DNA of 49,013 nt, taken from positions 1 through 49,013 of the forward strand of contig CAMDCX010000011.1 of assembly GCA_945890715.1 (NCBI GenBank). Reading direction: 5' to 3'. Under the pieces are notes generated by a model. The model made no database searches and was not told the DNA's origin. It saw only the letters and a list, made by a program, of their open reading frames with translations. Made by a program: the position numbers and the translations under genes. Within the stretch, counting starts at the first letter, position 1; the number at the start of each line of letters is the position of its first letter. This DNA is from PVC group bacterium (GTDB lineage Bacteria; Verrucomicrobiota; Kiritimatiellia; CAIKKV01; CAITUY01). Positions 2,062 to 41,517 of the stretch are shown here, piece by piece.

Positions 2062-4533
2062 ATGAGAGTCTCTGATTTTTATCACATGATTATAGATCGT
2101 CCAACCCATTGCGATGTCGTCATCATCGGGGGAGGCATTGCCGGGTTGACCGCTGCCGCTCTGTTGTCAAAGGCTGGCCTCCGCATCGAGCTTTTCGAAA
2201 CGGAACCGCAGGCAGGGGGCTGTCTGGCCGCATTCCACCGCAAGGGATTCACGTTTGACACCTCCATCGAATGGCTGAACCAATGCCGCCCAGGTGGTTT
2301 CCTCGCCCGCATCCACCACTTCATCGGCAACGACGGCCCGCGCTATGTCCCGCTCCAGCGGATCCATCGCTATAAGGACACTGCCCACAATTATCTACTC
2401 ACTTCAGACCCCTTGGAATTCCGCGATCATCTGATCCGGGATTTTCCCCATGAAAAAAAGGGCATTCAGGAACTCTTCCGGGACGCCGAGAAACTCGGCC
2501 GCCATATGCTATTTCTCGACAACCGCATGCGGTCGGTGAAAACCATGTCCTTGCGCGAACTTCTAGGCCACGGTCTCGCCATGACACGCTGGGTGTGGCC
2601 CATCCGCCATGTGGTCTCAACTCCGGCCGTCAAGGGATTGACCCGTTATTTCAAGACCCGCGAGCTCCTGGACCTTTTTCATTCCGATGGCACCATGATG
2701 TCGGTCCTCGTTCCACTGGGATTCGCCTTTACAGGTGATTTCCAAAAGCCGCCTGAGGGAGGCTGCGCCGTGCTGGTGAACTGGCTGTGCCGAAAAATCA
2801 CCGCGAACGGCGGCCGGATCACCCTGAATCAACGTGTCCAGGAAGTCCTGGTCAATGCCTCGAAAGAAGCGACCGGAGTCCGGCTCACCACCGGTGATAC
2901 CGTGCACGCCCGCTATGTCATCGCCGCCTGCGATGTGGAACAGCTCTTCACCACGATGCTTCCCCCCGCCAGCGTCCCGGCCAAAACGCTCAAACGCCTC
3001 CGTCATGCCGATCTCTTTTACTCCAGCTTCTCAATTTATCTGGGACTGGATTGCACCCCCGCCTCACTCGGACTGGATGAGTCACTCATCCGCCTGACCG
3101 ATGCCTCCATTCCACTGGATAATCGGGTTAATGGAGAAGCCCCATCCACTCTCATCAGCGTCCTGGCTCCCTCCCTCCGCGATCCTTCCCTCGCGCCCGC
3201 GGGAAAAGGCACACTCCTCATCCAGTGCCCCGCCTACCTCACCCATCACAATCACTGGGACACGGGACCGAATCTGGAGCGCGGGGACGCCTATCGCCGG
3301 TATAAGCAGGAGTTCACCGACATCATTCTCGACCGGGTTGAGCGCCTGCTGATCCCCGGCCTGCGGCGTCACATCGAAGTCATGGAAGTGGCCACTCCGG
3401 TGACGTTCCACCGCTATACCGGAAACCGCGGCGGATCCATCATGGGACACAAACCGACCAAAAAAAACATTCATGCCTGCCTCGCCAACCTCACGACCCC
3501 CGTCAAACGGCTGTTGCTGGGCGGGCAATGGGCAGAATACGGGGGCGGAGTGCCCATGGCCACCAAAGCCGCCGTCAATTCCAGCCTCATGATCCTCAGG
3601 GAAATGCGCCCGGCCGTCTTCGCCGACTTGAAAACGGTGGTGGATGGCACTGGGTTCACGCCCCTGACCATCGGAATTCCCCGTGCCCTGTATTATTTTT
3701 ATTATCCCTCCCTCTTCGAAACCTTCTTTACCCGGCTCGGCCACATCCCCGTGCTCTCCGGCAACTCCACCCGCCACACGGTCGAGCAGGCCGCTCTGAT
3801 CTCCGAATCGGAACATTGCCTGCCGCTCAAACTGCTCGACGCCCACCTGGCCGAACTCGTCGGCAAAGTGGATCGACTTTTTGTTCCACGTCTTCTCTCG
3901 GGACTGAAGGGACACATCGCCTGCCCCAAACTCTCCGCCCTGCCCGATGTCGCCCAGGCCCAGTTCGGCGACCGCACCCGAATCCTGAGCCTGGACATCC
4001 ATGAAGGCACAACGCCCCTACGTGACTCCCTGCTGGAACTGGGACGCCGCCTCGGCGCGGAGGACAGCCTGATCCGAAACGCCACCGAGGCCGCCCTGTC
4101 TGCTCTGGCCGAGGCACGCCGCCCTCCTATCCGGAAACCCGGCCAAACGAAAAAAAGACTCCTGGTCATCAGTCATCCCTACAACCTCCACGACGACTAT
4201 ATTTCCGGACCCATTCTCGCCACCTTGAAACGACTTGATGTGGATGTTGACCTGATGCCGTTTGACGGCGAGGACATCCCACCGGGCAACATCAAGTGGG
4301 ATACCTGCGGAAAAATGATCCACCACCTCAAAACGCTGAATCCGGCCGAATACGCCGCCGTGATCCAACTCACCTCCTTCAATTGCGGGTGCGATTCCAT
4401 TGTGATGGAATTCAACCGTGAAATCCTCAAGAATAAGGGAATTCCCACCATGACGTTCGTGGTGGACGAACACGCCGCACAGGCCGGAACAGAGACCCGG
4501 CTGGAGGCATTTGTGGATTCAACGAGATGGTAA
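2062..4533 (+). CDS. CrtI/RetSat-like FAD oxidoreductase fused to a DUF2229 (dehydratase-type) subunit
   Basis: An 823-residue two-part protein. Residues about 18-515 resemble phytoene-desaturase/retinol-saturase flavoproteins: Rossmann motif 'VVIIGGGIAGLTAAALL' and a C-terminal FAD segment 'LLLGGQWAEYGGGVPMATKAA'. From about residue 534 ('IGIPRALYYFYYP') it becomes a DUF2229/HgdB-like domain of acyl-CoA dehydratase activase-related proteins. Conserved cysteines are C586 in 'HCLPLK', C621 in 'ACPKL', and C775/C777 in 'FNCGCDS', followed by a family-typical 'VDEHAAQAGTETRLEAF'. Homologous DUF2229 domains usually sit in one very large protein with the activase; here they are split and joined to a flavoprotein. 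Likely an iron-sulfur/flavin redox enzyme; the substrate is unknown and a polyene or isoprenoid is speculation. The start could instead be 2086. Four bases separate it from the next gene's start. Confidence 0.8.
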   Translation: MRVSDFYHMIIDRPTHCDVVIIGGGIAGLTAAALLSKAGLRIELFETEPQAGGCLAAFHRKGFTFDTSIEWLNQCRPGGFLARIHHFIGNDGPRYVPLQRIHRYKDTAHNYLLTSDPLEFRDHLIRDFPHEKKGIQELFRDAEKLGRHMLFLDNRMRSVKTMSLRELLGHGLAMTRWVWPIRHVVSTPAVKGLTRYFKTRELLDLFHSDGTMMSVLVPLGFAFTGDFQKPPEGGCAVLVNWLCRKITANGGRITLNQRVQEVLVNASKEATGVRLTTGDTVHARYVIAACDVEQLFTTMLPPASVPAKTLKRLRHADLFYSSFSIYLGLDCTPASLGLDESLIRLTDASIPLDNRVNGEAPSTLISVLAPSLRDPSLAPAGKGTLLIQCPAYLTHHNHWDTGPNLERGDAYRRYKQEFTDIILDRVERLLIPGLRRHIEVMEVATPVTFHRYTGNRGGSIMGHKPTKKNIHACLANLTTPVKRLLLGGQWAEYGGGVPMATKAAVNSSLMILREMRPAVFADLKTVVDGTGFTPLTIGIPRALYYFYYPSLFETFFTRLGHIPVLSGNSTRHTVEQAALISESEHCLPLKLLDAHLAELVGKVDRLFVPRLLSGLKGHIACPKLSALPDVAQAQFGDRTRILSLDIHEGTTPLRDSLLELGRRLGAEDSLIRNATEAALSALAEARRPPIRKPGQTKKRLLVISHPYNLHDDYISGPILATLKRLDVDVDLMPFDGEDIPPGNIKWDTCGKMIHHLKTLNPAEYAAVIQLTSFNCGCDSIVMEFNREILKNKGIPTMTFVVDEHAAQAGTETRLEAFVDSTRW

Positions 4534-4534
4534 C

Positions 4535-5608
4535 ATGACAGCCCTGGCCATACCCCCCTGGGGAAACTATTCCATTGCGCTGGCCGCCTCCGTGGAGTGC
4601 CTGCGGGTCACCCCGTGGAGCACCCGAAGCACCACGCCCGAGATCATGAAACTCGGAGCGGAAGCCTCGCCCGAATTCAGTTGCCTGGCTTTCAAGGCCA
4701 CCACCGGTTACTTCATCAAGGCGGCCATGGAGGGCGTGGAATATGGCGTCATGGTCAACAGCGTGGGCACCTGCAGGCTCCGGTACTACCGGGAACTGCA
4801 GCAAAAAATTCTCAAGGATCGCGGGCTCAACCTGTTCATCTTCGGGCTCGGCTATGACGGGATCAAGCCGCCGCTGATTCGCCATTTTGACCCGACGATG
4901 GGCGACTTCCTCCGCTGCTCCGCCCGCGCCTTTTTCAAGGTTCATGCCGTGGACGCCATCGAAAAGCTGGCATGGGAAACACGGGCACGGGAACTTCACA
5001 CAGGCGATACCACCCGCCTCATGAACACCTGCCTCAAGGATCTGGACGACGCCCGGACCGTGCCCGCCATCCGGGCCGTATCACGGGCGGTTCCCGCGCG
5101 CTTCCAAACCGTCCCCACCGATGCCGCCGCCAGCCCCCTGAGAATCGGACTCCTGGGCGAGGCGTCGATTCTGCGGGACAGCTATTTGAACCACAACCTG
5201 GAGGAAACCCTAGGCAGCCTGGGAGTCGAGGTCCGGAATTTCTTCCTGCTCGGAAATGAAATGGCTAAAATCTTCAACATCGGCCTGTGGAGCCCGGAGT
5301 CCCGTGGCGCCCTGACCCGGCTCGCACGCCCCTATCTTAAGTCACGGGTGGGCGGCCACGCTTTGGAATCCGTGGCCTACACCCTGCGCTGTGCCCGGGA
5401 ACAATACGACGGAGTCATCCATGTCTCCCCCACCGGCTGCATGCCGGAAATCAGCATCCGTCCGATCCTACGGAAGATCAGTCAGGATCACTCAATCCCC
5501 ATCCTCGAACTGTCATTTGACGAACACAGCAGCCATGTCGGGGTCGTCACCCGACTGGAAGCTTTTACGGACATTCTGCGGGAACGAAGAAAGCAGGCCT
5601 CATCATGA
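4535..5608 (+). CDS. 2-hydroxyacyl-CoA dehydratase (HgdB/DCCP-like) family subunit
   Basis: A 357-residue protein related to the last section of large acyl-CoA dehydratase activase proteins and to HgdB-type subunits. Diagnostic stretches are 'GVMVNSVGTCRLRYYRELQ' with 'KILKDRG' (the family's 'G.CR.G.Y' motif), 'HVSPTGCMPEI' and 'LSFDEHSSHVGVVTRLEAF'. The last parallels the C-terminus of the preceding protein, so the two probably form a heterodimer like HgdA/HgdB. Cysteines in 'TCRL', 'RCSARAF' and 'GCMPE' are candidate iron-sulfur ligands. The ATG at 4535 follows the upstream TAA by a single base. The gene overlaps the activase gene by 4 bp (ATGA). Catalysis is probably ATP-driven electron transfer at low potential; the substrate is not deducible. 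Confidence 0.8.
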   Translation: MTALAIPPWGNYSIALAASVECLRVTPWSTRSTTPEIMKLGAEASPEFSCLAFKATTGYFIKAAMEGVEYGVMVNSVGTCRLRYYRELQQKILKDRGLNLFIFGLGYDGIKPPLIRHFDPTMGDFLRCSARAFFKVHAVDAIEKLAWETRARELHTGDTTRLMNTCLKDLDDARTVPAIRAVSRAVPARFQTVPTDAAASPLRIGLLGEASILRDSYLNHNLEETLGSLGVEVRNFFLLGNEMAKIFNIGLWSPESRGALTRLARPYLKSRVGGHALESVAYTLRCAREQYDGVIHVSPTGCMPEISIRPILRKISQDHSIPILELSFDEHSSHVGVVTRLEAFTDILRERRKQASS

Positions 5609-6579
5609 CAACCCATGCCTATCTCGGAATTGATGTCGGGTCGATCAGCACCAATCTGGTCCTGATCGATTCCGCCTCAACAGTTCTGTTCACGGCCTAC
5701 CGACGGGTCGATGGCAATCCCATCCACTCCGTCCAGAAGGCGCTTCTTGAAATGCGCGAGGCCGTGCCGGGCACCCTTGAAATCGCCGGGGTCGGCACCA
5801 CGGGTAGCGCCCGCACTTTGATCGGCGCCGTCGTCGGGGCGGACATCGTGAAAAACGAGATCAGCGCCCATGCCCGGGCCGCGCTCCATCTGCACCCGGA
5901 GGCTCAGACCATTTTTGAAATCGGGGGACAGGACAGCAAGGTCACGATCCTGCGCAATGGCGTTGTGGTGGACTTTGCCATGAATCTGGTCTGCGCCGCC
6001 GGTACGGGAAGTTTTCTGGATTCGCAGGCCAAGCGGCTCAGTCTCTCGATTGAGGAACTGGGGGAACGGGCACTCCTCTCGAACGATCCCACCACCATCG
6101 CGGGACGCTGCACCGTCTTTGCCGAATCCGACATGATCCACAAGCAGCAAACCGGCCACCAGCAACACGACATTGTCATGGGTCTGTGTCAGGCCATGGT
6201 GCGAAATTTCCTGAGCAATGTTTGCGCCGGCAAGGAAATCCGTCCCCCCATCGTCCTGCAGGGCGGAGTCAGCGCCAACCGCGGAATCCGCCGGGCCTTC
6301 AACGAGGCCCTCCGAACCGAGGTGATCATTCCGCAGCACAATATGGTCATGGGGGCCTACGGTGCCGCCCTGCTCGCGGCCCGGGCCAATCCCGCCCGAA
6401 CCCGGTTCCGGGGCTACAGCCTCTGTGACCGGGAGATCGCCACACGCAGCTTCCGGTGCAACGATTGCCCGAATCAGTGCGAGGTGATTGAGATCATGGA
6501 TCATGATGACTCTTTGGGTCGGAGCGGGGGACGGTGCAGAAAATGGGAACAAGGGGTTCAGGCAGGGGGCTCGCAATGA
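5605..6579 (+). CDS. BadF/BadG/HgdC-type ATP-dependent activase
   Basis: A 324-residue ASKHA-fold ATPase that in known systems injects a low-potential electron into a 2-hydroxyacyl-CoA dehydratase, benzoyl-CoA reductase or double-cubane-cluster protein. Visible motifs are 'GIDVGSISTNLVLID' (phosphate 1), 'GVGTTGSAR', 'EIGGQDSK', and the cysteines that bridge one [4Fe-4S] cluster between two monomers: C130 in 'CAAGTGSFLD' and C169 in 'GRCTVFAESD'. Their spacing of 39 matches HgdC. A short C-terminal tail adds a cysteine cluster, 'FRCNDCPNQCEV' (C285, C288, C292), which in the large single-chain relatives lies in the linker before DUF2229. The gene therefore looks like a cleanly detached N-terminal part of such a protein. 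It overlaps both neighbours by 4 bp. Confidence 0.9.
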   Translation: MTTHAYLGIDVGSISTNLVLIDSASTVLFTAYRRVDGNPIHSVQKALLEMREAVPGTLEIAGVGTTGSARTLIGAVVGADIVKNEISAHARAALHLHPEAQTIFEIGGQDSKVTILRNGVVVDFAMNLVCAAGTGSFLDSQAKRLSLSIEELGERALLSNDPTTIAGRCTVFAESDMIHKQQTGHQQHDIVMGLCQAMVRNFLSNVCAGKEIRPPIVLQGGVSANRGIRRAFNEALRTEVIIPQHNMVMGAYGAALLAARANPARTRFRGYSLCDREIATRSFRCNDCPNQCEVIEIMDHDDSLGRSGGRCRKWEQGVQAGGSQ

Positions 6580-37346: not shown

Positions 37347-39118
37347 CACACTCCATTGTCATTCATGACCCGAAAGCCGGACACTGGCTGACCTTCGAAA
37401 ATCCGGTTAGAATTGTTTCCGCTTCCTCCCTGTCGGAAGTCCTTCCCGCCCTGCGCGAGATTGAAGCCGAAGTGAATCAGAACGGTCTTTTTGCGGCGGG
37501 CTTCATGAGTTATGAAGCGGCACCCGCTTTTGATTCCGCCTTGAAGGTCCGGCCTGATGATTCCGGGTTTCCCCTGCTCTGGTTCGGCCTCTATCACGCC
37601 CCCCAGCACACCCTGACCTCCATAGCCTCCGTCGCCGAGGCTATGGAGGCCAGGGCCTTGGCGACGGAGACTGGCTCCTGGCTCCCTACCATAACGCGCG
37701 AGGAGTATGAGACGACGGTGGCGCGACTGCGGCAATATTTATTTACGGGCGACACCTATCAGGTCAATTATACTTTCCGACTCAGGGGCCCCTGCCCGGC
37801 TTCGCCTGAAGCCCTCTTCCACAATCTTGTCCAAGCTCAGGGGCCGCATTATTCGGCCTTCGTGGACACCGGTGACTTCGTCCTCTGTTCGGCCTCGCCT
37901 GAGTTGTTCTTCCGTCTGGAGGGCGACCGCCTGGAATCCCGCCCAATGAAGGGAACCCAGAAACGCGGACTGACCCTTGAGGATGACCGGAATCAGGCCC
38001 AGCGACTGAAGGATTCCGAAAAAAACAGGGCCGAAAACATCATGATCGTCGACATGATCCGGAACGACATGGGACGAATCGCCATTCCCGGAAGTGTGGT
38101 ACCCGAACGGCTTTTTGAAATTGAGCGGTATCCCACCGTCTGGCAAATGGTGTCCACTGTCACCTCACAAACCCGAGCTTCTCTCAGCCACATCTTTTCC
38201 GCCTTGTTTCCCTGTGCCTCCATTACCGGGGCACCCAAACCCCGAACCATGGACATCATCGCCCGGGAGGAGACCACGCCACGTCGGATCTATACAGGCA
38301 CCATCGGCTATCTGGCGCCCGGCCGCCGCGCTCAGTTCAATATTGCCATCCGCACCGTTCTGGTTGATCGCAAGGCCAGCACGGCAGAATATGGCGTGGG
38401 GGGCGGTATTGTATGGGATTCCGAAACCGGAAATGAATACGAGGAGTGCTGGCTCAAGGCGAAGGTGCTAACCGAAACCCCGCCTGTATTTGACCTTCTG
38501 GAGACCCTTCTCTGGACTCCTGAGAACGGCATTTTTCTTTTGGATCGGCACCTGCATCGCCTGGCGGAATCCGCCGAGTATTTCAACATTCCCCTTTCCC
38601 TGCCCACTCTGCGTTCTCTGCTGAATGTTGAATGTTCAACGTTCAATGTTCAGTTTCCCAGCCGCCTCAGACTCCGAGTCGCCCGCGATGGAAACATCAC
38701 CATAGAATCGACCCCTCTGGATCTGAGGGACGCCTCATCTCCCGTCCGTGTCCGTCTGGCGGCGAAGCCGGTTGATCCCGGTGACCGATTCCTCTATCAC
38801 AAGACCACCCATCGGGCTGTTTATGAGCAGGCAAAGGCGGGAGTAGAGGATTGTGACGATGTGCTACTCTGGAATCCAGACGGTGAGCTGACGGAATCCA
38901 CTATAGCCACTATTGTGGTGGAACGTAACGGGGAATTCCTGACACCGCCGGTCCGCTGCGGCTTGTTGCCCGGAACCTACCGTTCGGAATTACTCGATCA
39001 GGGGATCATCAGGGAAGCCATCCTCCCTGTTTCAGAACTCCCCCATTGCGACACAATCCACCTGATCAATTCCGTGCGAAAATGGCGCAAGGCGGTCCTG
39101 ATCCCTACAGCGTCTTAA
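37343..39118 (+). CDS. pabB: aminodeoxychorismate synthase component I fused to aminodeoxychorismate lyase (PabB-PabC)
   Basis: A 591-residue bifunctional enzyme for p-aminobenzoate in folate synthesis. Residues up to about 375 are the chorismate-binding domain: 'FMSYEAAPAFD', 'YQVNYTFRLRG', 'PMKGTQKRG' (lysine of the PIKGT motif), 'ENIMIVDMIRNDMGRIA', 'SITGAPKPRTMDII'. The remainder is a class IV aminotransferase: 'LLETLLWTPENGIFLLDRHLHRL' in sections and 'LYHKTTHRAVYE', where Lys should bind PLP. The start is GTG overlapping the previous TGA. Two small repeats sit in frame: a 13-bp-arm palindrome coding 'SIASVAEAMEA' and a 7-bp-period repeat coding 'LNVECSTFNVQ'. Both fall in likely loops, so the gene is probably functional. 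It overlaps the aminotransferase gene tail by 14 bp. Confidence 0.92.
   Translation: MTHSIVIHDPKAGHWLTFENPVRIVSASSLSEVLPALREIEAEVNQNGLFAAGFMSYEAAPAFDSALKVRPDDSGFPLLWFGLYHAPQHTLTSIASVAEAMEARALATETGSWLPTITREEYETTVARLRQYLFTGDTYQVNYTFRLRGPCPASPEALFHNLVQAQGPHYSAFVDTGDFVLCSASPELFFRLEGDRLESRPMKGTQKRGLTLEDDRNQAQRLKDSEKNRAENIMIVDMIRNDMGRIAIPGSVVPERLFEIERYPTVWQMVSTVTSQTRASLSHIFSALFPCASITGAPKPRTMDIIAREETTPRRIYTGTIGYLAPGRRAQFNIAIRTVLVDRKASTAEYGVGGGIVWDSETGNEYEECWLKAKVLTETPPVFDLLETLLWTPENGIFLLDRHLHRLAESAEYFNIPLSLPTLRSLLNVECSTFNVQFPSRLRLRVARDGNITIESTPLDLRDASSPVRVRLAAKPVDPGDRFLYHKTTHRAVYEQAKAGVEDCDDVLLWNPDGELTESTIATIVVERNGEFLTPPVRCGLLPGTYRSELLDQGIIREAILPVSELPHCDTIHLINSVRKWRKAVLIPTAS
37617..37649 (+). repeat. 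palindrome inserted in the PabB part
   Basis: CCTCCATAGCCTC (37617-37629) and GAGGCTATGGAGG (37637-37649) are perfect 13-bp arms around the 7-nt loop CGTCGCC. A further GGCGACGGAG follows at about 37660-37669. It lies between 'HTLTS' and 'ITREEYE' of the protein, where orthologues are expected to be shorter. Confidence 0.75.
38622..38652 (+). repeat. 7-bp-period repeat inserted in the PabC part
   Basis: Four degenerate heptamers in a row, GAATGTT GAATGTT CAACGTT CAATGTT, encode 'LNVECSTFNVQ'. The same type of translated repeat is familiar from spurious proteins of other repeat-rich genomes. It lies in frame before 'FPSRLRLRVARDG'. Confidence 0.65.
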
Positions 39119-40268
39119 CGAAACGCTCCAGCCGGGTCATGCCTTCCTCGATATTCGCCGTGTTACAGGCATAGGAAAGCCGGATATGCTCGTCGGCACC
39201 GAAGGGAAGTCCGGGCACCACGGCCATCTTTTCCTGAATCAACAGTTTTTCCGCAAAGTGAAGCGAAGACAATCCGAACGCAGCGATATTCGGAAACATG
39301 TAGAACGCGCCGACGGGCTTGACGCAGGTAATCCCCTTGATCGAAGTCAACCGCTCGTGGAAAAACTTCCGTCGTTCATCAAAGGCCTGAACCATCTTCG
39401 TCACGCAATCCTGGGGTCCGCGCAGGGCCGCCACAGCCCCGTATTGGGCAAAGGTGTTGGGGGCCGAGGTGCTATGGCTCTGGAAGGCCGAACAGGCCTT
39501 GACGATCTCAATCGGCCCGGCAAAGTAACCCAGGCGCCAACCGGTCATGGCATACGGCTTGCTGAACCCATTTACCGTGATGGTGCGTTTGAAAATTTCC
39601 GGCGAAAGCGCTCCCACGCTGACCGCCTCCATGCCATCATAAACCATCCGCTCATAGATTTCGTCGGACACAATATAAAGATTGTGCTTCACGGCCACTT
39701 CCGCCAGCGCCCGGAGTTCAGCCCGGCTGTACACCATTCCTGTGGGATTGGAGGGGCTATTGAGGATCAGAGCCTTGGTGCGAGGGGTGATGGCCGCTTC
39801 CAGCTGGGACGCCGTAACCTTCAGTCCGTGGGCTTCGGTTCCACGAACGAACACCGGCTTGCCTCCCGCAACACGCACCATTTCCGGATAACTCAGCCAG
39901 AAGGGGGCGGGAATGATGACTTCATCCCCCTCGCGGCACAACGCCATGAAAATATTGAACAGCGAATGCTTGGCGCCATTGCTGACCAGGATCTGCTCCT
40001 GCTTGTAGGACAATTTGTTTTCAACGGAGAGCTTGTCTGCGATGGCCGCCCGCAATTCCATGATGCCGTCATTGGGAGCATACTTGGTCTTGCCTTCCCG
40101 GAGTGCCTTGGCGGCCGCCTCCTTGATGTGCTCAGGCGTGTCAAAATCAGGCTCACCCGCACCGAATCCGCATACCTTTTCCCCCGCTGCAGCAAGTGCC
40201 TTCGCCTGGGCGTCAATCGCCAGGGTTAACGACGGCGCAATTTTCCCTACCCGCTCATTAAGCTCCAT
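39105..40268 (-). CDS. class I pyridoxal-phosphate aminotransferase (aspartate aminotransferase type)
   Basis: A 387-residue enzyme of the AspC/AAT-I beta family. Motifs: 'AGEPDFDTPEHIKEAA', 'YAPNDGIMELRAAIA', 'APFWLSYPEMVRVAGG', 'LNSPSNPTGMVYS' (cofactor Asn), 'YIVSDEIYERMVYDG' (Asp and Tyr) and 'TVNGFSKPYAMTGWRLGY' with the PLP-binding Lys, and the substrate Arg in 'HIRLSYA'. It should exchange amino groups between aspartate and 2-oxoglutarate, though aromatic or other substrates are possible. The start at 40268 has GGAG upstream and overlaps the NDK-like gene by 11 bp; a longer frame from 40316 lies inside that gene. Confidence 0.93.
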   Translation of the reverse strand: MELNERVGKIAPSLTLAIDAQAKALAAAGEKVCGFGAGEPDFDTPEHIKEAAAKALREGKTKYAPNDGIMELRAAIADKLSVENKLSYKQEQILVSNGAKHSLFNIFMALCREGDEVIIPAPFWLSYPEMVRVAGGKPVFVRGTEAHGLKVTASQLEAAITPRTKALILNSPSNPTGMVYSRAELRALAEVAVKHNLYIVSDEIYERMVYDGMEAVSVGALSPEIFKRTITVNGFSKPYAMTGWRLGYFAGPIEIVKACSAFQSHSTSAPNTFAQYGAVAALRGPQDCVTKMVQAFDERRKFFHERLTSIKGITCVKPVGAFYMFPNIAAFGLSSLHFAEKLLIQEKMAVVPGLPFGADEHIRLSYACNTANIEEGMTRLERFVKTL

Positions 40269-41424
40269 AATACTTCTCCACCCAATCCCGTATTGTATCG
40301 TTTTGAACATCCACAATCTTCATTTCCCGGGCCGCATTCTCAGGCGAATCCGAGGCATGCGCGGCATTGACCATGATATCGCTGCCGTACTCACGGCGCA
40401 CGGAGCCGACCTGCGCCTTGGCCGGATCCGTCGGGCCCAGCAAGTAGCGGATCTTCTCCACGGCACTCATCCCCTTGTAAATCAAAGCGAGGCAATTTTC
40501 CGATCCGGTCTTCGCCTTGTCCGCCTCCGCCACCTCGGAGGGGCGATGTCCGGTCATGAACTTGACGATTTCCTCAAACTGGTGTTCCCCCACAATCGGC
40601 CCGATCTGTTCACCGATCGCCGCCTTGGCGTTCTCGGGAATCTCGATATTCAGGGCCTTTTCAAGGATATCACCGGCGCGCTGCGCGGTGATCTGCTTGA
40701 ACTTTTCGTGAAGAATAGCACGCACCGGCCCGTAAAAATCCTCGGCCTGGGCAACCGTCATGGCGATTTTCCGCAATCCCACAATCCGTAGGCCGGATCG
40801 GGACAACAGGTCGATGATGTGACCCGGGCGGACGGACGGAAACCGGAAATTGTCCGGTTTAATCAGAACGAGCGTGCTTTGGACCCCTTCCGAATCGGAG
40901 ACATCCTGGCTCTGGTCCATGATCCCGCCATCGGTCTCTGAATACTCCGCCCACAAGCGTAGTACCGAAGCGGCCCGTTCAACGGAGGGCGCCACCAGAA
41001 CCGCAGGCTCAAAATAGGTTACTTTCCCAGACTCATCCTCCACATAATCCCCGTAGGTGTCACGAATCGTTTCGCCACCCACCCAGCCGGCGCGGAGATG
41101 CCCCGTGGCTTCGCGCACTTTCTGAATGGCATTCTCCCCTTCAAACGTCAGCAAAATGACACGGCGTCGGCGCCCCGTTGCCGCATCCGGAGCATAGTTT
41201 TTCCGGACATATTCACTCAATAACCGGGCGAACTCAGGCTCCGTCTGGTTGCTTGTCAGCAGGGAATCGGCATAGCGAGTCACCAGTTCCTGGCTCGGAC
41301 CGAACATGCGGGCGGCCGCCAACTCCAATCCGGTACGGCTCATCAGCCGTCCAATGACTCCACCCGTCCGTGATTTCGAGATCGTATAGGGATTAATCAG
41401 TGCAAATGCCAGTTCCTGTGCCAT
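40258..41424 (-). CDS. tandem-domain nucleoside-diphosphate-kinase-like protein
   Basis: A 388-residue protein made of two NDK-like domains. The first (about 1-170) begins 'LAFALINPYTISKSRTGGVIGRLMSRTGLEL' and has 'ATGHLRAGWVGGETIRDTYGDYV' but no catalytic His after it ('YFEPAVLVAPSVERA'). The second (about 195-388) begins 'STLVLIKPDNFRFP' and keeps the phospho-acceptor: H356 in 'NAAHASDSPENAAREM'. Single NDKs are about 140 residues, so both domains also carry an insertion, seen in the second as 'KALNIEIPENAKAAIGEQIG'. The active domain should transfer gamma-phosphates between nucleotides; the first is likely regulatory or structural. The start at 41424 follows the domain boundary. Confidence 0.85.
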   Translation of the reverse strand: MAQELAFALINPYTISKSRTGGVIGRLMSRTGLELAAARMFGPSQELVTRYADSLLTSNQTEPEFARLLSEYVRKNYAPDAATGRRRRVILLTFEGENAIQKVREATGHLRAGWVGGETIRDTYGDYVEDESGKVTYFEPAVLVAPSVERAASVLRLWAEYSETDGGIMDQSQDVSDSEGVQSTLVLIKPDNFRFPSVRPGHIIDLLSRSGLRIVGLRKIAMTVAQAEDFYGPVRAILHEKFKQITAQRAGDILEKALNIEIPENAKAAIGEQIGPIVGEHQFEEIVKFMTGHRPSEVAEADKAKTGSENCLALIYKGMSAVEKIRYLLGPTDPAKAQVGSVRREYGSDIMVNAAHASDSPENAAREMKIVDVQNDTIRDWVEKYYGA

Positions 41425-41517
41425 AAAACGGTCCTGCTTTCTCTTCGCGTGCCCCACAATTCGGGCGAAGTATCCCGATTGCATTCCTGCGAATCAAGCC
41501 TAATCCTCGTAAAAGAT

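Follow-up and report, generated by a model that had tools for sequence, protein, structure and literature searches.

The window analyzed here is a stretch of 49,013 nt (contig CAMDCX010000011.1, positions 1–49,013, assembly GCA_945890715.1) from the metagenome-assembled genome (MAG) of a little-known lake bacterium of the PVC group (Verrucomicrobiota, class Kiritimatiellia). At positions 2062–6579 it carries three genes, P1, P2 and P3, which encode a DUF2229 subunit (RED1), an HGD-D-type subunit (RED2) and an activase (ACT); these three parts are referred to together as the triad. In P1, RED1 is fused to a CrtI-like flavin adenine dinucleotide (FAD) domain, and this FAD-RED1 protein represents a real, conserved and new arrangement of known modules. 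Reductases driven by ATP through HgdC-type activases are known in amino-acid fermentation, in anaerobic aromatic degradation and, more recently, in plasmalogen and ether-lipid synthesis. The module described here is probably an accessory, ATP-driven and oxygen-sensitive reductase with a built-in flavoprotein, which performs a tailoring step in an anaerobic aryl-polyene-type lipid pathway; its function is likely at the level of the pathway and speculative at the level of the reaction. What is new is this genomic tie of the module to an anaerobic polyene-lipid pathway, as the three-gene split itself already occurs elsewhere. Genomes are designated below by G numbers, with G000 being the window's own genome and the others MAGs or genomes of its relatives.

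The fused gene and its partners

P1 (2062–4533, forward strand, as are all genes of the module) is a single intact open frame of 823 aa, whose true start may be M9 at position 2086, since homology in distant relatives begins near residue 10–11. The CrtI-like FAD domain occupies approximately residues 16–520 (2107–3621), as delimited by PF01593 and by profile alignment to the CrtI structure 4dgk, and bears a GGGIAGL dinucleotide motif and a C-terminal YGGGVP motif; the Amino_oxidase model (PF01593) matches residues 26–506 at 68.8 bits (cut-off 19.8). The RED1 catalytic subunit follows at approximately residues 536–820 (3667–4521), with DUF2229 (PF09989) matching residues 536–729 at 112.7 bits (cut-off 29.4) over model positions 1–212 of 218. 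An earlier interpretation made from the DNA alone (the sequence-only reading) had placed a complete CrtI/RetSat-like FAD domain N-terminal to a DUF2229 half, and the intact frame and the full-length domain bear this out for a CrtI-like domain, a likeness to RetSat being tentative. P2 encodes the 357-aa RED2 catalytic subunit (4535–5608); its ATG lies one base past the P1 stop codon, and its match to HGD-D (PF06050) is partial and C-terminal (30.8 bits, cut-off 28.4, model positions 242–342). RED1 and RED2 are recognizably alike in sequence, which fits a pair of related subunits. P3 (5605–6579), the start of which overlaps the 3' end of P2, encodes the 324-aa acyl-CoA dehydratase activase ACT, which matches TIGR00241 over the whole domain at 193.4 bits (curated cut-off 125.4), as expected of an HgdC-type activase, and BcrAD_BadFG (PF01869) at 158.6 bits (cut-off 31.5). 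P1 and P3 are the only matches in the genome to DUF2229 and PF01869, respectively. AlphaFold2 models built from inputs of 4–5 close sequences are of low confidence, with a predicted local distance difference test score of 44 for the fused protein and 55 for RED2.

Three further MAGs of the window's family carry the fusion intact, namely G005 (95% identity), G003 (88%) and G006 (66%), and pairwise ratios of nonsynonymous to synonymous substitution rates (dN/dS) of 0.04–0.20 in both halves of P1, in P2 and in P3 indicate strong purifying selection. The sequence-only reading had called for a search for further proteins of this architecture, of which these three are the result, and had allowed that the junction might be an artefact or that the fusion might be common and have a known product. 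That a frame or assembly artefact joined two unrelated genes is a negligible prospect even for a gene in a fragmented MAG, because the same junction recurs in four MAGs at 66–95% identity with dN/dS well under 1 over both halves. Nor is the fusion common: among 346 genomes of the class, no FAD-RED1 fusion was found beyond these four MAGs of one family. When P1 was searched against plasmids, no match extended over 80% of its length; most of the matches listed were CrtI-like proteins. A second, different fusion partner on the same RED1 subunit was seen in G236 (L066:8168–9961, reverse strand), where RED1 is N-terminally fused to a Kdo/WaaP lipopolysaccharide-kinase-like domain (PF06293, 118.7 bits).

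Proteins of the FAD clade (at least 41% identity) are present in 10 of the 346 class genomes, four of them fused and six stand-alone (41–66% identity), beyond which the next best matches drop to 29% identity or less. RED2 was found in twelve of the 346 and in another two from the phylum sample (63–97% identity across the 14), while stand-alone RED1 orthologues are 44–56% identical. FAD and RED2 co-occur in six of the 346 genomes (p 8e-8), or in two when the fused genomes are removed (Fisher p 0.007).

The alignment between the FAD-clade profile and 4dgk spans the full length (E 1.3e-26; positions 14–509 of the profile). The domain scores 121–123.5 bits against crtI_fam (TIGR02734), below the cut-off of 238.1, and thus falls outside that family; it belongs to the broader CrtI-like flavoproteins by its PF01593 match and by whole-length similarity that includes the FAD motif. 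In a phylogenetic tree the FAD clade stands apart from the other CrtI-like proteins of these genomes (support 87/99 at its base), and the stand-alone protein of G007 (L045:9309–10889) is sister to the fused protein of G006 (100/100). No triad was found in the G007 genome. Because G007 lacks RED2 and its FAD protein is sister to a fused one, the simplest reading is that the fusion arose once and that G007 later lost the RED1 part. A CrtI-like gene adjoining the triad of G015 was considered as further support and was not counted, being a true member of the phytoene-desaturase family (437 bits).

Affinities of the triad

The best solved relatives of ACT are 4eht and 1hux; these relatives are the activators of 2-hydroxyisocaproyl-CoA and 2-hydroxyglutaryl-CoA dehydratase, together with a 3-methylbenzoyl-CoA reductase subunit. 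A RED1 profile reaches 7yyl_C and 6eno_A (E 4e-6 to 1e-5), labelled "dehydratase family protein" and presumably representing a double-cubane protein, as well as single-chain PlsA-type proteins of Listeria (3e-27) and Paraclostridium (9e-42). The RED2 profile matches the 2-hydroxyacyl-CoA dehydratase subunit 3o3m_B weakly (E 0.0045), and neither profile reaches the Azoarcus 2-hydroxyacyl-CoA dehydratase pair. The likeness to HgdAB drawn in the sequence-only reading therefore needs care, as RED1 and RED2 match solved 2-hydroxyacyl-CoA dehydratases weakly and lie nearer the double-cubane/PlsA-type branch; judged by sequence, the nearest relatives of tested function are the PlsA/Ger ester reductases.

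Ten other genomes from the class and phylum, as well as the clostridium Monoglobus, have the order RED1-RED2-ACT without the flavin domain, and in Clostridia such three-gene operons are annotated as acyl-CoA dehydratase activase-related protein, 2-hydroxyacyl-CoA dehydratase and activase. The Monoglobus operon (L059:5767–8984) lies beside TSCPD-domain and dapF genes. In an activase tree with long deep branches and an arbitrary root, the triad activases share a clade (99/93) with that of Monoglobus, separate from the single-chain activase domains of Listeria, Collinsella, Haliovirga and PVC genomes. The three-gene form thus appears in this tree as a separate lineage that is not new to this window. 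It had been described as the large single-chain protein split into three genes; such a derivation is not supported, and neither is a recent split of PlsA by the tree. The Listeria protein is a single chain comprising the reduction domains and two activase domains, and PlsA/PlsR proteins in general join activase and reduction domains in one or two chains, whereas the window has three genes and one activase; by chain number and by phylogeny alike, the triad falls outside PlsA/PlsR.

Cysteines were compared across 14 triads. In RED1, C586, C621, C775 and C777 (P1 numbering) are invariant, as are C22, C50, C80, C286 and C302 of RED2. ACT retains C130 and C169 throughout, within the cluster-ligand motifs CAAGTG and GRCTVF, and these are the two cysteines expected of HgdC-type activases for the inter-subunit [4Fe-4S] cluster. 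The four-cysteine tail of ACT (C285, C288, C292 and C311; 6457–6537) is likewise invariant in 14/14 triads, and its pattern recurs in the Monoglobus activase and, in most single chains of the PlsA type, in the linker that follows the second activase domain. The comparison of this tail with the single-chain linker had been made earlier and is apt, but C311 had been overlooked. Family membership and the conserved cluster cysteines together point to ATP-driven electron transfer by the activase.

Association with a polyene-lipid gene cluster

In G032 the triad (27.1–30.1 kb of contig C42) is located inside a contiguous aryl-polyene-type lipid cluster of ~37 kb (19000–56340; L038, L121, L137). Its chain-building genes include KS-type synthases with a KS/chain-length factor (CLF) pair, acyl carrier proteins (ACPs), a ketoreductase, an ApeI-like dehydratase (a weak match) and a 4HBT thioesterase; for lipid assembly and export it encodes PlsC- and LpxL-type (lipid-A-type) acyltransferases, AMP-ligases, LolA, an MMPL exporter, a DUF3261-like protein and a GT2 protein. 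Also present are a second CrtI-like enzyme, a condensation-like protein, SPASM, HemN-type and B12 radical-SAM proteins and a deacetylase lipoprotein. The gene content expected of an aryl-polyene-type cluster with the module (KS/CLF, ACPs, dehydratase, thioesterase, LolA, exporter and acyltransferases) is thus present in G032, and the cluster is close to the published aryl polyene (APE) gene list of Escherichia coli (PMC8253772). The stand-alone FAD genes of G453 and G451 lie within or beside the same polyene cluster genes.

This association extends across genomes. Among 268 class genomes, CLF accompanies a triad or FAD protein in 14 of 16 and is present in 11 of the remaining 252 (Fisher p 6e-15), and in a 50-genome panel the condensation-like protein occurs in 14/18 genomes with the module and 0/32 without it, the B12 radical-SAM protein in 11/18 and 1/32; the co-occurrence p-values are too small, the genomes being phylogenetically non-independent, a point against the association, while the positives span eight families.

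A polysaccharide-deacetylase-like lipoprotein gene (NodB, PF01522; 6576–7478) overlaps the ACT gene in the window through ATGA. Its orthologues (45–67% identity) adjoin the B12 radical-SAM gene of the cluster in G007, G032, G076 and G451, and an orthologue adjoins the fused gene in G006. At 39108–41484 of the window, on the reverse strand, two genes are 78–81% identical to a pair found beside ACP-KAS-CLF genes in G007 (contig C95, L169), with no adjoining KAS or CLF in the window.

The window's own genome carries part of the pathway elsewhere. Contig C14 of G000 (L182:7807–18913) encodes FabG, a second CrtI-like protein, KAS, ACP, an acyltransferase, an AMP-ligase, a SPASM protein, LolA, MMPL and DUF3261 in an order like that of the polyene cluster, and the same block is present in G003. 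The block ends ~1 kb from the contig end, soon after DUF3261. The module of G000 is on another contig than this partial cluster, and no CLF, dehydratase or thioesterase was seen in G000. That G000 is without the polyene pathway, as its missing CLF, condensation-like and B12 radical-SAM genes had suggested, is an idea that the C14 block corrects. Comparison of gene positions indicates that the pathway is dispersed over several loci in the window's family, for which reason the window shows only the reductase locus. In G001, of the window's genus, polyene cluster genes and a CLF were found on C376 and C100 (L117, L170), and no triad or FAD-clade protein was found.

Proposed function and alternatives

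In the favored mechanism, ATP hydrolysis by the activase would gate low-potential single-electron transfer to an iron-sulfur center on RED1-RED2, where the carbonyl of a polyene ester or thioester, or a conjugated enoyl group, would be reduced via a radical on the model of plasmalogen synthase, the 2-hydroxyacyl-CoA dehydratases and benzoyl-CoA reductase. The CrtI-like domain would hold the same long polyene while its flavin saturates, desaturates or isomerizes the adjoining C=C bonds. We infer the ATP-gated one-electron transfer and radical reduction from family membership, and a polyene chain or its ester or thioester as the substrate from the fusion and the genomic context. Given the pathway, PlsA/Ger-like reduction of a polyene acyl ester or ACP thioester is the single most likely reaction, if a tentative choice. 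A more elaborate scheme, in which the HgdC-driven iron-sulfur reductase hands single electrons directly to the fused CrtI-type flavin in an oxygen-free route to the polyene or polycyclic, ladderane-like membrane lipids of PVC-group bacteria, so that saturation, desaturation or cyclization is powered by ATP and not by oxygen or quinones, must be considered doubtful. The sequence-only reading had proposed that ATP drives a reaction by which a lipid or polyene is reduced, dehydrated or saturated; the lipid-polyene context is supported by the clusters of relatives and the C14 block, and this support does not extend to the exact reaction, the substrate or the direction of the flavin chemistry.

Several observations weigh against a role in the polyene pathway or a joint action of its parts. 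Eleven CLF-positive genomes are without the module, which indicates that it is not essential to the polyene pathway. In the window the module is surrounded by housekeeping genes, and neither CLF, the condensation-like protein nor the two B12 radical-SAM orthologues sought were found in G000 or its sister G005, both of which are incomplete MAGs (the G000 assembly is 89.5% complete); true loss of these cluster genes in G000 and G005 is possible. The FAD protein occurs without the triad in G007, G468, G453 and G429, and the triad occurs without the FAD clade in eight genomes, which argues that the two are able to act separately.

This separability bears on an alternative that is compatible with the polyene pathway and disputes the electron link alone, namely that the fusion is a mere physical tether and the FAD domain desaturates or isomerizes the polyene by itself, with no electrons from the ATP-driven subunits. 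The four triad-less genomes favor it, and the sister relationship of the stand-alone G007 protein to the fused G006 protein implies that the flavin domain survives without RED1. Maintenance of the fusion in four genomes under purifying selection argues the other way, as does the co-occurrence of FAD and RED2 beyond chance after removal of the fused genomes, though both track the same cluster. We regard such a tether as unlikely, yet as the strongest of the alternatives.

Less probable is that the triad acts as an ester-to-ether reductase of general membrane phospholipids, analogous to PlsA or Ger, with the FAD domain saturating a vinyl to an alkyl ether; the link to the polyene cluster would then reflect shared anaerobic lipid metabolism and not a shared substrate. 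The RED1 profile matches to PlsA-type single chains and the tail that ACT has in common with the second PlsA activase domain are as this proposal would have them, PlsA has a tested ester-reductase activity and alkyl ethers are made by Ger (PMC8788747, PMC13274423), and purifying selection maintains the module in two genomes that yielded no CLF. Opposed to it are the near-restriction of the module to polyene-cluster genomes, the presence of single-chain PlsA-type proteins instead in other genomes of the phylum, and the activase tree, which parts triads from single chains.

A role for the triad as a 2-hydroxyacyl thioester dehydratase, converting an aryl-lactate to an arylacrylyl starter for the polyene in place of an ammonia lyase, is very improbable: the HGD-D family match, the AMP-ligases and ACPs of the clusters, by which a hydroxy acid could be loaded, and the lack of an ammonia lyase among the cluster proteins scanned are in its favor, but the solved 2-hydroxyacyl-CoA dehydratase subunit is matched weakly, the Azoarcus pair is out of reach of both profiles and the CrtI-like domain is left unexplained.

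If confirmed, the tailoring reductase favored here would be a specific enzyme to which anaerobes could owe demanding reductions of long conjugated lipids, and would define, within the PVC bacteria, a family of uncharacterized anaerobic clusters for polyene lipids, similar also to those proposed for ladderane lipids. No paper was found in the literature consulted that places an HgdC-type reductase in a polyene pathway or describes one fused to a carotenoid-desaturase-like flavoprotein, which is weak evidence of novelty.

Comparison with known systems

The clusters of the relatives resemble APE clusters in the co-occurrence of KS, CLF, ACPs, ketoreductase, ApeI-like dehydratase, thioesterase, LolA, MMPL/RND exporter, DUF3261, GT2 and acyltransferases, and differ from them by the addition of B12 and SPASM radical-SAM genes, CrtI-like enzymes, the condensation-like protein, the deacetylase lipoprotein and the ATP-driven reductase. 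The type II fatty acid synthesis clusters of Kuenenia and Desulfotalea, proposed for ladderanes or polyunsaturated hydrocarbons (PMC2649909), are similar in so far as their genes are described there, with radical-SAM, phytoene-desaturase-like, phenylacetyl-CoA-ligase-like, divergent KS and polysaccharide-deacetylase-like genes; the part of that description consulted does not mention a DUF2229 reductase.

With the CrtI, CrtD and CrtISO flavoenzymes the window's FAD domain shares whole-length alignment, the FAD motif and a C-terminal GGG-P motif, from which it is set apart by its score under the family cut-off, its own clade and its fusion to a DUF2229 subunit. The three-gene operon of Monoglobus pectinilyticus has the same order, RED1-RED2-ACT, and an activase that is 52% identical and sister in the activase tree, but it is without the flavin domain, its RED1 and RED2 are only 27–28% identical and no polyene genes adjoin it. 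PlsA/PlsR, which form a vinyl ether from an acyl ester, and Ger, whose products are alkyl ethers (PMC8788747, PMC13274423, PMC12838417), share with the window an HgdC-type activase, a DUF2229 subunit, a second HGD-D-like subunit and a cysteine tail or linker past the activase. Those enzymes consist of a single chain or of two, which includes one or two activase domains, whereas the system of the window consists of three genes with one activase of a separate clade and an added flavin domain.

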